Counted from the first letter of the stretch, positions 28,837 to 36,124 are shown. The stretch is 41,373 nucleotides of DNA from Bacteroidales bacterium (GCA_028702675.1 JAQVOJ010000014.1:1-41373), one strand, 5' to 3'. The notes: generated by a model from the sequence alone, not told the origin. Program-made: numbers and translations.

Positions 28837-29157
28837 ATGGAAGATAAAGCAAAAAAAAATCAAGTTAATATTGAGCTAAAAGAAGATGTGGCTCAGGGTG
28901 TTTATAGTAATTTAGCTGTTATTACTCATAGTAATGCAGAATTTGTAGTGGATTTTGTAAGAATAATGCCAGGCTTACCTAAAGCTCAAGTAAAATCCAG
29001 AGTAATTCTTACTCCCGAACACGCTAAGCGTTTAATGATGGCACTTCAGGACAATATTAAAAAATTTGAACAAGCTAATGGCGAAATTAAAGTTAAAGAC
29101 CCAAATAAAGGTCCCATAATGCCACTTACTTTTGGTGGACCTACAGCTCAAGCTTAA
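28837..29157 (+). CDS. DUF3467 domain protein at the end of the rpoBC operon
   Basis: A 106-residue protein recognised as DUF3467 from the block VNIELKEDVAQGVYSNLAVITHS, then EFVVDFVRIMPG and RVILTPEHAKRLMMALQDNIKKFE. The fold looks like beta strands followed by a helix. There is no signal peptide or membrane segment, and the tail is rich in Pro and Gly. Its function is unknown to me. It is the last gene before the operon terminator and starts two bases after rpoC, so it is co-translated with RNA polymerase. This suggests, but does not show, a role with transcription. Confidence 0.85.
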   Translation: MEDKAKKNQVNIELKEDVAQGVYSNLAVITHSNAEFVVDFVRIMPGLPKAQVKSRVILTPEHAKRLMMALQDNIKKFEQANGEIKVKDPNKGPIMPLTFGGPTAQA

Positions 29158-29161
29158 AAAA

Positions 29162-29209
29162 ATGGATAAAAAAAATGAGGCAATTAATTGTCTCATTTTT
29201 TTTATCCAT
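29162..29209. terminator. bidirectional terminator between the rpoBC operon and clpS
   Basis: Eighteen bases (29162-29179: ATGGAT, eight A's, TGAG) pair perfectly with 29192-29209. The loop contains CAATTAATTG, which can add more pairs. The A8/T8 blocks supply a T tract on either strand. It is only 4 bases after the DUF3467 stop. Confidence 0.85.
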
Positions 29210-29237: not shown

Positions 29238-29516
29238 CTATTCAATTGTAACATTGAGACCCTTAATTATAAACAAATCTTTTAAGGGCTTAAGACTATC
29301 GAAAACTCCGGCTTTAATTTCACATTTACCTTTATAATGTGCGAGTGTGGCACACTGTTCAGCTTGAATAATATCATGATGGCAAATTTCTATAAGGCAA
29401 TCAATAACATATTCAAATGTGTTAACATCATCATTATGTAGTAATAAAAAATGCTGCTTAAGCTCAATGTTTTTTTGATTAGATTTAAGTTCACTATTTT
29501 GTTTACCTGCACTCAT
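29238..29516 (-). CDS. clpS: ClpS-like ATP-dependent Clp protease adaptor
   Basis: A 92-residue adaptor that delivers N-degron substrates to the Clp unfoldase. The N-terminal 20 residues are a flexible tail. The core LLLHNDDVNTFEYVIDCL holds the alpha-amino-binding Asn28, Asp29 and Asp30. His60 in LAHYKG completes the pocket (E. coli Asn34, Asp35, Asp36, His66). The usual Val-His-x-x-Gly is Ala-His-Tyr-Lys-Gly here. It lies 29 bases downstream of the giant SPOR-domain gene on the same strand with no visible promoter, so the two are probably co-transcribed. No clpA-type gene is nearby. Confidence 0.88.
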   Translation of the reverse strand: MSAGKQNSELKSNQKNIELKQHFLLLHNDDVNTFEYVIDCLIEICHHDIIQAEQCATLAHYKGKCEIKAGVFDSLKPLKDLFIIKGLNVTIE

Positions 29517-29545: not shown

Positions 29546-32500
29546 TTACAATACCTGATTCAATGGAATTCTTTGCCCATTACGTAATACAACAATAAAT
29601 GCATCATTTATACCATTTCCTTTTGCTCTTTTCTGATATATTAATGCTTCTTGATAATTTGATAATGGACCAAGCCGATAAATAACTAAACCATTATCGT
29701 ATCTAACAATTTTAATACCTGCCTCTTGTGCAATATTCTCAAATCGTTGTAATAACATATCTTCAACTTCGCTATGATATGCTCCTATTTGAACATAAAA
29801 CTCAGTTTCTAAATTTTCTGCGGTTTCTGTTTTTTCTTTGTCATCTTGTACAATTACGTCTGTGTCGCTTATTGTGTCATTAATAACATTTATTTCATTA
29901 GCATCATCAGAATGCCTAACATGCACACTTTCCGAATTTTTGGCAAGGTCTTCCGCTGTCATATTAGCTAATAATTGTAAAGCTTCGTTTACAGTTACTT
30001 TTTTACCGTAAGCATAAGCCGACACAAATGCATCTCCAATACCCGATAGCTTTATCCTATCTCTATTCGCTATCACAGAATTTAAATCATAATAAGTACC
30101 ATTAAGATGCCTTATGTAACCATTATCAGCAAACTCAATATAGTCGGTAGTTATACCATATAACAAATTAGGTTCTATTAAATTTTTTCCTGCTCCTATT
30201 TGAACTGTTAAGAAAACATTATGTGTAGCATTTACGTTTCTCGGTTTTACATCATCACTCATTTCTTCGTGCACATTCTGCTTATTAGTTGCAATACCAT
30301 TAGTCCCATTATATTCTAATACAACATATTGTGATGTTTCATTATAATCTTGGTTATTTTCAACCATATTAATCTCATCAGCCGATTGTTGATTATATGC
30401 CAAAATATCTTTTTGTGCCAATAAGCGATTAGCCTCATAAATTGAAATACGATTACCATTGTAGTAAGCAACTATAAATGCATCGTTAAACCCTTGTGCT
30501 TTAACTCTTGGCAATGCAGTATTGGCTCCTTCAAATGTATAAAAAGTGCCTACCATATACCTTATAATATTTCGGTTTGGAATTTCTTCGTAAAACAATG
30601 GCGACATATTGAATCTACTCTCAGGCATTAAGCGATTGTATGCTGCAAATTGTATCCTAAACAATAATCCTAATTCTGTAACATCCTTATTATTTTCTTG
30701 TTCCGGGAAATTATCCTCTAAATCGAGTATTTTAAAAGATGGAGTATTACTTCTATCATATGTTTTTGTTAAACCGTCTTCATCTGTATCAATAACTATT
30801 TCAGCATCTGTTAAAACTGTATCTAATAAAACCTCATTATTGTAATTATTCGTTTCCTCTTCGGATGATTCTGATACTTCTACTAATAATGGTTTTTCTA
30901 TCATCGACATATCATCTGCCATACGTAAAGTGATTGCTTGATTATTTAAAGCATTAGCTTTATCGTCATATTTTTTTGCTTCCTTGTGTAATTCATTCTT
31001 CTCTTTTTCTGTTAGTTTTTTATTGCTTGAGATGTATTCTGTAATTTCAATTGATTTTTTATGATACTCATCTGCTTCTCTTAATATATTGTTAGTATAA
31101 GAATATATCTCAGCATTTTCTACTTCAATACTGTCTATTAAGCGACGCTTGTTTTCATATACAAACAAATTCATACCTAATTCAGTCTCATAAAGATTAT
31201 TCTCTTGCTTAATTTTTTTGTTTTCTAATTTTCTGTATTTCTTCTCTTCTCTTTTGGGGGACAAGTCCTTATATTTAAGCTTCTCTATTCTTTCATTTGT
31301 TTTATATACTTTTTTTGATAACTTCTTCTGCTTTTCTGTATAAGAATTGTATCGTTTTTCTGTAGTTTCATCCTTAACTATAAGCTCTATATAAAATGCT
31401 TCGTCTTCCATCTCTATTTCTAAAGCATCAAATTCTGAATAATAGTATTCAGTATTAATAACTGAATCTTTGCTGTTATCTGAAATTATTTCATGTTTGA
31501 TTTCGTTTTCCGTTAATTCATATTCATTTACTTGCTCATTATCAACAATATTATCGGCAATAACCTCATCTTCTGATAATTGGGGGATTGTATCAGTTTT
31601 AGATATAAGGAGTTCATTATCTTCGGCTTCATCATAAAGTGTGTCAACACGATTTGTGATTTCGTTGTCTGCAACTATTTGAGTATCTACACTATCGGTA
31701 AGTTCAACTAATTCGTTATTTTTTATCTCAATAGTATCGCTTAAATAACCTTCATCGGCAACAATACCATCGGCAACTAGCTCAAATTCATAATCATTAA
31801 TATCATTTAATCGCAATTTGTGCTGTTCTAAAACTTTTTCAGCTACTTTTGCTTCGTCTTTTTCAGCCACATAATTGGCAATAGCAATTGTCCTTATCGC
31901 TTCATCTGCTAACTCATCAGCTTTTTGTATTCTTGCTTCATATTCTTGTTCATTTATTTTACTCCTATTGTTATTAGCATCATTTCTTATCGTTTTAGCT
32001 GTATTTAATAAAGTATCGGCAAGCTGTACTAGTGTTTTGGCGGTTTCTTCAACCGATTTATATACAGTTTTTTTGTTATCTATTAAGTCTTTTCCAGTAT
32101 TATAAGCCAATAAAGATATTTCTTCATTGTTTTCTTCAACTTGTTTCTCAATATTATTAAGTTCTTCTTGTGCTTTGTTTATTTGTTTTTGTATCTTTTG
32201 CTTTTCAGTTTGGTCAGCTACTACCAAATCCGATTCTAATTCTTTAATTATTAAACTTTTATTATCTATTTCTTTATTAAATTCTATATTTTCGGCAGAA
32301 AGTTTATCAATTTCTTTTGTTGTATTTTCTGAACTTGCAGCTAATTCATCAATAGTTTCGCTAATGTTCTGCTCTGTATATAAGTTATATTCAGAAACTG
32401 TAACAGCATTCTGTGCCATCCATGCTTCAGTTGCAATCATATCCGAACTTGCAGAATGTACTCTATTGTTAAACTCTTGAATCTTACTATTTTCGATATT

Positions 32501-35500
32501 CAACTTACCTATTATTTTTTCTTGGTCTTTTAATAAGTTTTCGCCAAGTACTATTACTTCACCAAGCAGAACATATTTATAATCTGAAGTATTATTATTT
32601 AAGGCATTACTCTTTGTACTATATTCAGAATAATCTTGTTCAATTTCTTTCGCTTTCTGTTGTTCTACTTCGCTTAATACATTTTCATTTTCGTTAATAA
32701 TACTTGTATTAATATTATATAGGGTATTATGATAAAGAGCAATATATTGTACAGCACTATCTAATGCTTCTTGCCGATGCGTATTTAATACAAGTATTTG
32801 ATCTCCTATTACCGACTTTTCATAACTATTAGCGCTTTTAAATGTATTTGATAATGTTTGAATTTCTATATTTAAAGAGTCAGCAATGCTCAAATATAAA
32901 TCAGCATTATAAGCGTATTTTAAACATTCTTTTTTAAGAGCCAAATACTTACTTTCTGTTTCGCTCTCAATAATTGGAACTACTATTTTATTATAGTTAT
33001 CAGTTATGCTTTTTGCTTTGTAGTTTATACTACTTGATACTAAAACGGTATCTTCATAATTTTTAATGTCTGCGTCTGTAATTACAGCGTATGCATTTCG
33101 GTAACTATTAACAGCTTTTTCTTTGTATTGTGCTGCTTCTATAATATAATCTTGTTTAATAGATTCATCATCTATCGTTTCAGAAAATTCTAATAGCTCG
33201 TTTGATTTAGCGTTAAGTATTTTTGCGTCTTCCTGATACTTGGCAGACAATTCTGTTTTTTCATTATCTGTTATAGTTGATTTAATGTCATCATATTTTT
33301 GATTATAATATTCATATTTTTCCTCATTTACAATAATTTCTTGTTGCGATAGTTCGGCATGTTCTTTTTTTGCATTTTTATAATCATTAATAAAATTATC
33401 TGCTAATAGTATTTGTTTTTCAGCATCTGTTTCAGATTCAATTTTAATAATGTCATCTTCGAGATTAGCATAAAATTGCTCAATTCGCTGTTTATCCTCT
33501 TCTGTTTTTGCTTTACTCACTGAATCTATTTTCTCAATTTCAGAGGTAATATCTTCGGTTTTTATAGCAATTAATTCATTATCGTCTAATACAAATTGTG
33601 TTGTATCCTCCACATTATCAGCAACTAAGGTATCAACAACAATTTCAGAAATTTCATTATTATAATCAACTAATTCATCCGAATTAGACAATGCATTATT
33701 AATATCATTATTTATTTTAACAAGCTGTGTTTGGTTTTCACTTATTTGTTCGGTTATCTCTTCCCTTGTTTCTATATCATTAATTGAATCAAGCTTTTTA
33801 GCGAGTATTTCAGATTCTTCGATTAAGTCTTTTGCAACAGAAATTTTTCCATCAATAATTCCCTCATATTTAGGATTAATTTCAAGCTTATGAAGTTTTT
33901 CATACTCATTGATTAGTTTCTTATTGGCTTCTTGTTGTTCCTTAATATGATTATTTTCAGTAATTAAGCTATCGAAATCGATTTGGGGTTTTACAAAATA
34001 ATCGCTACTATTTAAAATATCTGTCTGAATTTTAGCTAAATCTTTAAGGCTTTTCTGATTTTGCTTATTAATTAAAGCATTAGCTTGTTGTCTGATATCT
34101 TCATTTTTGTAAGTAGAATCATTTTCACTAAGAGTGTAAAATTGAGGAATCAATTCTTCCGAAAAACGATAACTCAACTCCGATTCATGCAAACTTCTTT
34201 TTGTAAATTCATATTGAGTCAGCAATGTTTTGTATTCGCTAATTTTTGCTGTTCGTTGTTTCTCAAGTCGTTTTATTTCTAAAAGGTTTTGTTGCTGTAT
34301 TGTTTTGTCTGAATTTGATAAAGTCCTAATACCTAATACTTCAATTGTTGAATCTATTTCAGCAATCTCAGTTTTAATTTTGTCTATATTTACTATATAT
34401 GTTTCTATCTTATTAGCATTATCGCTTTTTGCTTTTTGTTTTTGTGATAAGTATTCCTCTTTAGAATTATCAACATTCAATAGATTCAGATTCTTTTTAA
34501 TTTGATTTAATTTCTCAATATCGCTACTAATATTTTCAGATATCTTACTATAGCTTCTAAATTCATCTGTATAATAATTTAAATTTGTCTGATTAGTAGA
34601 TAATAGCTTGTTGTAATAACTGTTTATTTTCAATATTTCGTCAAGGAGTAGTGTTTTTTCAAAAATTTGCTCATCAATTTTTGAGAGTTCTATTTCGATT
34701 TGTTTTTCGCCTAAGTTGGAATTAGAAATTTCGTCTCTAAGTATATATAGTTCATTTATTTCGTTAACATATTCTTCTAACTTAATTTCGGAATTATTAA
34801 TAATACTATTGTAGTTATCGATTTTTTCCTCAATACTTTGTATTAAATCCTGAATAGAAACATATAATTTATCGTAAACATCATTATTAGAAGAATCTTG
34901 CAAAAATGCATCATCTTCAAAACTCAACAATACACTATCATTTTCTTCATAATTATAATCTGATATAGCAAGCCTATCCATATCAACTTTATGCATATCA
35001 GCAGTAATTGTTGTGTTAACTTCTAGTTTAGCATGTTTCCTCACGTCTGAAATATTATCAAGCACATAAATTTCAGGACTTTTGTTTACAAGAATTTTGA
35101 AAATACTTAATTTTCCGGCTTCTGTTTCACGTGTAGAAGCAAACCAAGCTTCTTCGCCATACAGGTCTGTTACATACATAATATCATCAAGGGGAGTATT
35201 TATAGGAAAATCTAAATTAATCGGGTCATCAAATTCTCTCGAATTATCATCATACTTTGCACTAAAAATATCATATCCACCCATGCTATTATGTCCTTTT
35301 GAGCTAAAATATAATACATTACCGCTAGGATGCAAAAACGGATAATTTTCATCCTCATCAGTATTAATATTACCACTTACAGGTCTAGGATTAGACCATT
35401 TGCCATTTTGCTGCTCTACCAAATAAATATCCAGAGAATTGTTTCTGTTATTACCATAACTACTAAAAAAAGCTTTATTATGCTGATGCGAAACATACAT

Positions 35501-36124
35501 CAAGCTTTCGAAATTTCGGCGTTTGTCAAATTTTGATCTAAATTCATCGGGAGTTTTTACAATTTCGCCATACGCATAAGAAAGTTCGTATGAGAAATAA
35601 AATTTATCTTGATTTACTTGTTTCTTATCAATTACATTAAGATTATAAGCAAACCGGACTAATTCTTCTCCATTTTTTGCCATATCCCTCTGTCTTTCAA
35701 AAGGATACCTTTCCTGAATTTTTTCATCTACTTTATCTACAAAAGTGTCATAATTAGTTAATGCTCTGTCGAACATATATTGAAGGTGATATGCAAGCCC
35801 TAAATAATAATATGCCTCTCCTTCACCGTTTTGAGCAGCATAATTTAAGAATTTTATGGCTTTTCGTAAATCTTCATTCGTATATACCATACAGGCACCA
35901 TAAGCAAGATTGAAATATGGCTCTCGTGGATATAATGTTATTAATTGGGAATAGTCTCTCTTTGCATTAAGGTAATCTTCGGATTCAAAAGACTTTACTG
36001 CTCTCTTAAAAACTTTTTCTTCGCCTGGATTTAGTTCTACTCCAATACTCTGAGCCTTAGCATTAATACAAAACAGACTAATGCTTAAAACAATTATACC
36101 AATAATAATCTTTCTATTCCTCAA
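29546..36124 (-). CDS. giant exported protein: TPR, PD40 propeller, coiled coil, three SPOR-like repeats
   Basis: 2192 residues. An N-terminal signal peptide (about 1-24, cleavage near AKAQ) precedes TPR-like helices (about 36-130) and a PD40/WD40-like propeller region (about 205-345, with YPFLHPSGNVLYFSSKG and GGYDIFSAK). Next come about 1400 residues (390-1780) of almost purely charged helical and coiled-coil sequence rich in Glu, Asn, Ile and Lys, broken by acidic linkers. The C-terminus has three SPOR-like modules at 1818-1902, 1968-2052 and 2106-2192, each ending in a G-x-x-DAF(I/V) strand and a G-x-(R/K) turn. SPOR domains bind peptidoglycan glycans. No T9SS sorting domain or lipobox is seen. 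The start must be TTG at 36124: the frame is closed upstream and the signal peptide follows directly. Inference: a periplasmic scaffold or wall tether. I know no named homologue. Confidence 0.85.
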   Translation of the reverse strand: MRNRKIIIGIIVLSISLFCINAKAQSIGVELNPGEEKVFKRAVKSFESEDYLNAKRDYSQLITLYPREPYFNLAYGACMVYTNEDLRKAIKFLNYAAQNGEGEAYYYLGLAYHLQYMFDRALTNYDTFVDKVDEKIQERYPFERQRDMAKNGEELVRFAYNLNVIDKKQVNQDKFYFSYELSYAYGEIVKTPDEFRSKFDKRRNFESLMYVSHQHNKAFFSSYGNNRNNSLDIYLVEQQNGKWSNPRPVSGNINTDEDENYPFLHPSGNVLYFSSKGHNSMGGYDIFSAKYDDNSREFDDPINLDFPINTPLDDIMYVTDLYGEEAWFASTRETEAGKLSIFKILVNKSPEIYVLDNISDVRKHAKLEVNTTITADMHKVDMDRLAISDYNYEENDSVLLSFEDDAFLQDSSNNDVYDKLYVSIQDLIQSIEEKIDNYNSIINNSEIKLEEYVNEINELYILRDEISNSNLGEKQIEIELSKIDEQIFEKTLLLDEILKINSYYNKLLSTNQTNLNYYTDEFRSYSKISENISSDIEKLNQIKKNLNLLNVDNSKEEYLSQKQKAKSDNANKIETYIVNIDKIKTEIAEIDSTIEVLGIRTLSNSDKTIQQQNLLEIKRLEKQRTAKISEYKTLLTQYEFTKRSLHESELSYRFSEELIPQFYTLSENDSTYKNEDIRQQANALINKQNQKSLKDLAKIQTDILNSSDYFVKPQIDFDSLITENNHIKEQQEANKKLINEYEKLHKLEINPKYEGIIDGKISVAKDLIEESEILAKKLDSINDIETREEITEQISENQTQLVKINNDINNALSNSDELVDYNNEISEIVVDTLVADNVEDTTQFVLDDNELIAIKTEDITSEIEKIDSVSKAKTEEDKQRIEQFYANLEDDIIKIESETDAEKQILLADNFINDYKNAKKEHAELSQQEIIVNEEKYEYYNQKYDDIKSTITDNEKTELSAKYQEDAKILNAKSNELLEFSETIDDESIKQDYIIEAAQYKEKAVNSYRNAYAVITDADIKNYEDTVLVSSSINYKAKSITDNYNKIVVPIIESETESKYLALKKECLKYAYNADLYLSIADSLNIEIQTLSNTFKSANSYEKSVIGDQILVLNTHRQEALDSAVQYIALYHNTLYNINTSIINENENVLSEVEQQKAKEIEQDYSEYSTKSNALNNNTSDYKYVLLGEVIVLGENLLKDQEKIIGKLNIENSKIQEFNNRVHSASSDMIATEAWMAQNAVTVSEYNLYTEQNISETIDELAASSENTTKEIDKLSAENIEFNKEIDNKSLIIKELESDLVVADQTEKQKIQKQINKAQEELNNIEKQVEENNEEISLLAYNTGKDLIDNKKTVYKSVEETAKTLVQLADTLLNTAKTIRNDANNNRSKINEQEYEARIQKADELADEAIRTIAIANYVAEKDEAKVAEKVLEQHKLRLNDINDYEFELVADGIVADEGYLSDTIEIKNNELVELTDSVDTQIVADNEITNRVDTLYDEAEDNELLISKTDTIPQLSEDEVIADNIVDNEQVNEYELTENEIKHEIISDNSKDSVINTEYYYSEFDALEIEMEDEAFYIELIVKDETTEKRYNSYTEKQKKLSKKVYKTNERIEKLKYKDLSPKREEKKYRKLENKKIKQENNLYETELGMNLFVYENKRRLIDSIEVENAEIYSYTNNILREADEYHKKSIEITEYISSNKKLTEKEKNELHKEAKKYDDKANALNNQAITLRMADDMSMIEKPLLVEVSESSEEETNNYNNEVLLDTVLTDAEIVIDTDEDGLTKTYDRSNTPSFKILDLEDNFPEQENNKDVTELGLLFRIQFAAYNRLMPESRFNMSPLFYEEIPNRNIIRYMVGTFYTFEGANTALPRVKAQGFNDAFIVAYYNGNRISIYEANRLLAQKDILAYNQQSADEINMVENNQDYNETSQYVVLEYNGTNGIATNKQNVHEEMSDDVKPRNVNATHNVFLTVQIGAGKNLIEPNLLYGITTDYIEFADNGYIRHLNGTYYDLNSVIANRDRIKLSGIGDAFVSAYAYGKKVTVNEALQLLANMTAEDLAKNSESVHVRHSDDANEINVINDTISDTDVIVQDDKEKTETAENLETEFYVQIGAYHSEVEDMLLQRFENIAQEAGIKIVRYDNGLVIYRLGPLSNYQEALIYQKRAKGNGINDAFIVVLRNGQRIPLNQVL

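Follow-up and report, generated by a model that had tools for sequence, protein, structure and literature searches.

The window, a stretch of 41,373 nucleotides from a Bacteroidales bacterium, carries on its minus strand a gene for a protein of 2,192 residues, which raises the questions of what kind of protein this is, whether it is peculiar to this organism, and what it might do in the cell envelope. The original prediction had described an exported protein of this size in which an N-terminal TPR/PD40 module is joined to three C-terminal SPOR-like modules by some 1400 residues of charged helix. The features considered are as follows.

29546..36124, minus strand: gene for the giant TPR-PD40-helical-3xSPOR protein (2,192 aa, TTG start, ORF without internal stop)
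36050..36124, minus strand: predicted N-terminal signal peptide, residues 1-25 (...INAKAQ), from sequence reading; the similar N-termini of orthologs end in AQ
35642..36028, minus strand: TPR helical bundle, residues about 33-161, from AlphaFold helices, Foldseek TPR matches and profile matches to TPR structures
35075..35557, minus strand: PD40 or partial beta-propeller-like region, residues about 190-350, from Pfam PD40 (252-287) and ortholog motifs
30695..34954, minus strand: acidic, Pro/Gly-poor spacer with amphipathic helical stretches, residues 391-1810, from composition, periodicity and ortholog comparison
30431..30667, minus strand: predicted SPOR module 1, residues 1820-1898, from repeat HMM, module profile and AlphaFold; Pfam just under cut-off
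29981..30217, minus strand: predicted SPOR module 2, residues 1970-2048, divergent, from repeat HMM and AlphaFold
29555..29800, minus strand: predicted SPOR module 3, residues 2109-2190, canonical, from repeat HMM, Pfam, AlphaFold and structural match
29238..29516, minus strand: clpS, 92 aa, conserved operon partner (Pfam ClpS E=2.9e-14), 29 bp downstream of the giant gene
29162..29209, no strand assigned: inverted repeat with an 18-bp stem and A/T tails between clpS (minus) and the DUF3467 gene (plus), read directly
28837-29157, plus strand: gene for a DUF3467 protein (Pfam 6e-33) right after rpoC, convergent with the giant-clpS unit

The ORF proved intact and the signal peptide was present, in agreement with the original prediction. 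No lipobox was found by a simple pattern scan of the first 45 residues, and no membrane or lipid anchor was evident in the protein; its N-terminal sequence is best explained by export via a cleaved signal peptide. A Pfam scan of the whole protein returned SPOR (E=2.4e-7 over two stretches; 31.4 bits against a cut-off of 21), PD40 (E=1.6e-4, residues 252-287) and, weakly, TPR_6 (residues 103-131), and gave no match to an OmpA domain. Neither NCBIfam nor a direct PDB sequence search yielded a useful match with the full-length protein as query. From the N- to the C-terminus, the layout thus read is a signal peptide, a TPR bundle, a short PD40 region, an acidic spacer of ~1,430 residues and three SPOR modules.

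To characterize the C-terminal block, a module HMM was built from the three repeats of the giant protein and also run on its relatives, by which 108 modules were identified across the family. When the modules were tested singly against Pfam SPOR (PF05036), module 3 scored above the cut-off, module 1 fell just below it and module 2 went undetected. Since module 2 of the window protein is missed by Pfam alone, its SPOR identity rests on homology to the neighbouring repeats. A profile of 20 modules searched against the PDB gave as its sole match the SPOR structure of CwlC (1x60, E=4e-5). Structure prediction of residues 1800-2192, the check that had been proposed for the SPOR assignment, was carried out with AlphaFold using alignments only two rows deep (the window protein and L025); the strands and helices appeared in SPOR order three times, with pLDDT of about 60-83 in the modules, and the predicted modules displayed the beta-alpha-beta-beta-alpha-beta fold. 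The best structural matches of the module 3 model were the RlpA SPOR structures 6i09, with denuded glycan, and 6i05, without it (Z 8.2; rmsd 2.2 over 70 residues for 6i09), and CwlC 1x60 was matched with Z 7.9; unrelated ferredoxin-like folds scored almost as well, so that the fold alone is not specific.

In the SPOR domain of RlpA, Q270 is the Gln that touches NAM/NAG of the denuded glycan (PMC6895207). The matching Gln was kept in 107 of the 108 family modules, including all three in the window, and the position four residues further on was occupied by F or Y in 97; this aromatic is present in modules 1 and 3 of the window protein, and Gly stands there in module 2. In every complete SPOR-bearing protein of the family, the SPOR block ends 0-8 residues from the C-terminus. 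The assignment of the three repeats as SPOR modules in place of an OmpA domain was thus supported by Pfam, the repeat HMM, the 1x60 match and the predicted fold, and by analogy with RlpA they would bind denuded peptidoglycan. Chance repetition, considered for the C-terminal repeats, was ruled out by the family-wide HMM matches.

The N-terminal TPR/PD40 module, for which a relationship to PorE-type proteins had been claimed, was corroborated by Pfam PD40, a TPR model and Foldseek matches. The TPR bundle, a kind of head that often binds peptides, was modelled with pLDDT 76-93 over most of its length. GGYDIF and N-P-N motifs were conserved in the PD40 region in the ortholog alignment, and the model of this region, based on the two-row alignment, had pLDDT <60 in most places. 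The PD40 part comprises ~160-180 residues in the giant protein and is much shorter than the propeller of PorE, which spans residues 167-435 (PMC7192894).

The head and the SPOR block could be aligned between giant forms, whereas most of the spacer could not. Residues 391-1810 contain 13.5% Glu, 0.6% Pro and 0.9% Gly, carry a net charge of -137, and show a hydrophobic periodicity of 3.5-3.6 residues (z about 6.7). The helix-favouring, acidic character originally claimed for this region therefore stood, but the single helix did not, because only 13 of 39 local windows of the spacer were individually amphipathic and none were at about 1420-1640. A series of helical stretches and acidic linkers is, on composition and periodicity, more likely. 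As a single helix at 0.15 nm per residue, 1,420 residues would extend by calculation about 213 nm, well past the periplasm. A search for internal repeats in the spacer found none. The spacer was fast-evolving, and its length ranged from ~200 to 2,080 residues among SPOR-bearing relatives.

The protein did not turn out to be unique, as strict profile matches were obtained in 128 of the 295 genomes of the order, in single copy with one genome excepted. A looser head query matched in all 61 genomes searched, with many of these matches being PD40 paralogs. In a phylum-wide draw of 296 genomes, the strict profile was matched in four, namely the window's genome, two genomes of the order that had been found before, and G369 of another order in the same class, whose ortholog has 2,040 aa. 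Conversely, when a short relative was used as the query, the best match in the window's genome was the giant gene. Three size classes were distinguished: short forms of about 470-520 aa without SPOR; medium forms of 590-1,000 aa, of which those examined had one or two SPOR modules; and long forms of 1,370-2,850 aa, in which the number of SPOR modules varied between two and five and was usually three. In a tree of 57 heads, rooted by midpoint only, 44 of 45 long forms fell into one clade (99/97), with L080 as the exception, and the short forms made up one clade (100/99) whose sister was a one-SPOR protein, which suggested SPOR loss in the short forms. The short clade has thus probably lost its SPOR modules, and on the same tree the spacer probably expanded once or twice. 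The giant is the long form of a conserved, uncharacterised Bacteroidota gene family and not a one-off.

Some members deviate from this pattern. The long forms L079 and L085 of family f65 (1,389 and 1,411 aa) had no detected SPOR module and seem to have lost the wall-binding tail independently. The giant ORF is broken up in L047 (2113-8076) into 728+388+199+498 aa and in L059 (4455-13431) into 1872+1050 aa; these interruptions represent either true breakage or assembly error.

We then considered the gene neighbourhood. The inverted repeat, which was not listed by a pattern scan, is a probable shared bidirectional terminator ending the giant-clpS unit, and the DUF3467 arrangement beside this unit was also found in L044. 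On the other side, bcp-recA lies divergent to the giant-family gene in the window and in several relatives. Among medium and giant forms, the order giant-family gene-clpS-nfeD-floA was found in L030, L031, L032, L038, L067, L080, L088 and L089; the four giant forms that keep the complete order to floA (L067, L080, L088 and L089) belong to four families. With FloA called by an NCBIfam equivalog and NfeD by Pfam, floA lay within 10 kb downstream of the giant-family gene in 54 of 111 genomes and upstream in none, elsewhere in 27, and was absent from 30, these genomes being related rather than phylogenetically independent and some cases being hidden by contig ends. Chance placement within 10 kb of a ~3.5-Mb genome is well under 1%. 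By size, floA was located within this distance downstream in 25 of 29 short, 25 of 34 medium and 4 of 48 long forms. The linkage to clpS was variable, and short forms often had no adjacent clpS. From this gene order we regard giant-family gene-clpS-nfeD-floA as an ancestral operon. Neither this operon nor the clpS gene next to the giant gene had figured in the original prediction. The short TPR-PD40 orthologs of G087 and G178 have floA downstream.

At the window locus clpS is present, and floA and nfeD do not lie beside the giant gene. FloA was not detected in the window's genome, which is 98.9% complete, or in most genomes of its family, and floA loss was concentrated in one family of genomes. 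As the window's genome is without FloA, the giant protein must act independently of it in that organism. A rule by which the giant form replaces a lost FloA was rejected, many genomes having both.

We propose with moderate confidence that the giant protein is a periplasmic, peptidoglycan-tethered scaffold whose head docks an envelope partner. After export and cleavage of the signal peptide, the protein, with no evident lipid or membrane anchor, would grip peptidoglycan strands stripped of peptides through its three SPOR modules. We infer that this binding would bring the C-terminal end to the septa of dividing cells and to other amidase-active sites. The spacer would hold the TPR-PD40 head at an adjustable distance, and the head would dock an envelope partner, the ancestral one plausibly being the NfeD-FloA flotillin system. 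Against the scaffold, the aromatic contact is lost in module 2, and the models of the PD40 fold and the spacer are without confidence. Against NfeD-FloA as the partner, the window's genome has no FloA and floA is adjacent in so few of the long forms; moreover, gene linkage to clpS-nfeD-floA is not interaction. Flotillins have been connected with the fluidity of membranes, with peptidoglycan synthesis and with the movement of MreB (PMC7360373). A further and distinctly speculative extension would have a FloA-NfeD inner-membrane microdomain linked through the periplasm to peptidoglycan at the septum, the TPR-PD40 protein anchored by SPOR serving as the tether; its spacer would have grown several-fold in one lineage, and the tether would have outlasted the flotillin in the window's family.

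The same gene-order data may be read otherwise. The operon linkage might have arisen by accident of history, in which case the protein would be a SPOR factor for division or cell shape with no relation to flotillin, as would fit the 44 of 48 long forms that are separated from floA yet keep SPOR modules and the varying linkage to clpS. The nfeD-floA linkage, however, has been retained in many families, by short and medium forms as well as by four giant ones, and this explanation appears unlikely. The scaffold might instead serve envelope proteostasis, the operon of the protease adaptor ClpS with NfeD and FloA acting in quality control of membrane and periplasm and the wall-anchored head holding unfolded or mislocalised envelope proteins. 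The operon content and the peptide binding frequent among TPR heads are in line with this, and FloA microdomains of S. aureus are reported to hold unfolded proteins (PMC11222466). ClpS, however, is cytoplasmic while the giant protein is periplasmic, the window's genome lacks floA, and clpS is often not beside short forms, which leaves a role of this kind doubtful.

As for the scaffold's resemblance to known systems, the closest in general design is PorE of the T9SS (P. gingivalis PG1058), a periplasmic protein with an N-terminal TPR, a PD40/WD40 propeller and a C-terminal wall-binding domain (PMC7192894). PorE, at about 670 aa, is acylated as a lipoprotein, and its complete propeller is accompanied by a CRD and an OmpA domain, whereas the giant protein has no lipobox by pattern, a shorter propeller region and no detected CRD or OmpA, and adds the spacer of ~1,430 residues and three SPOR modules. 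Likewise, CHU_0125, a Pal-like outer-membrane integrity protein of Cytophaga hutchinsonii, combines TPR, PD40 and a wall-binding C-terminus (PMC5891637), but has 656 aa, OmpA_C where the giant has SPOR, and no long spacer. The PorE model (NF052230, cut-off 600 bits) had no match to the window protein at E<=1; giant-family relatives scored 57-94 bits against it and <=99 bits against the CHU_0125 model (cut-off 620 bits), and in some relatives both models matched only part of the propeller region.

A PorE-like scaffold by which a machine for secretion or motility is fastened to the wall, in keeping with the secretion or gliding component once suggested, is thus very improbable: the partial propeller matches in several relatives and the presence of the T9SS translocon SprA in most genomes with a giant-family gene are outweighed by the missing PorE match, by SprA occurring in 65 of the 68 genomes tested whatever the size form, so that co-occurrence is uninformative and lends a T9SS-specific role no support, by two 99%-complete genomes (G087 and G178, family f58) without SprA that keep a ~485-aa ortholog, and by the recurrent neighbours, among which no T9SS gene stood out.

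A paralog in the window's genome (L091:2222-4888, plus strand, contig C119) is an 888-aa TPR-PD40-OmpA-SPOR protein resembling PorE and CHU_0125. It scored 244 and 257 bits with the PorE and CHU_0125 models, respectively, under both cut-offs and above every giant-family member tested. Since this paralog has both SPOR and OmpA, SPOR tails on TPR-PD40 proteins are not exclusive to the giant.

SPOR proteins usually carry one SPOR domain, and FtsN, DamX and DedD also have a membrane anchor. The giant protein shares with these three, and with RlpA and CwlC, the SPOR fold and the conserved Gln at the denuded-glycan site (PMC6895207), but they lack a TPR-PD40 head and a spacer of comparable size. The likeness to the FloA-NfeD system of B. 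subtilis and S. aureus lies in the ancestral operon partners, and no TPR-PD40-SPOR partner was found in the titles and abstracts of the flotillin papers listed by a literature search. A literature search covering few subscription journals found no report of PD40 and SPOR domains together. No characterised protein was found to cover the whole layout, as had been supposed, and no characterised family to cover the whole giant family. Wall-binding TPR-PD40 proteins are thus already known as a kind, and the giant family is set apart by its short propeller region, no detectable CRD or OmpA, more than one SPOR module, a lengthened spacer and its operon.

This analysis defines a conserved, mostly single-copy, uncharacterised family of Bacteroidota envelope proteins in a clpS-nfeD-floA and bcp-recA context. 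For a phylum on whose SPOR and flotillin biology the literature searched has little to say, it offers the concrete prediction that a bacterial flotillin would have a wall-anchored periplasmic partner. The size series from ~480 to 2,850 aa, throughout which the head is conserved, constitutes a natural experiment on the length of a periplasmic spacer.
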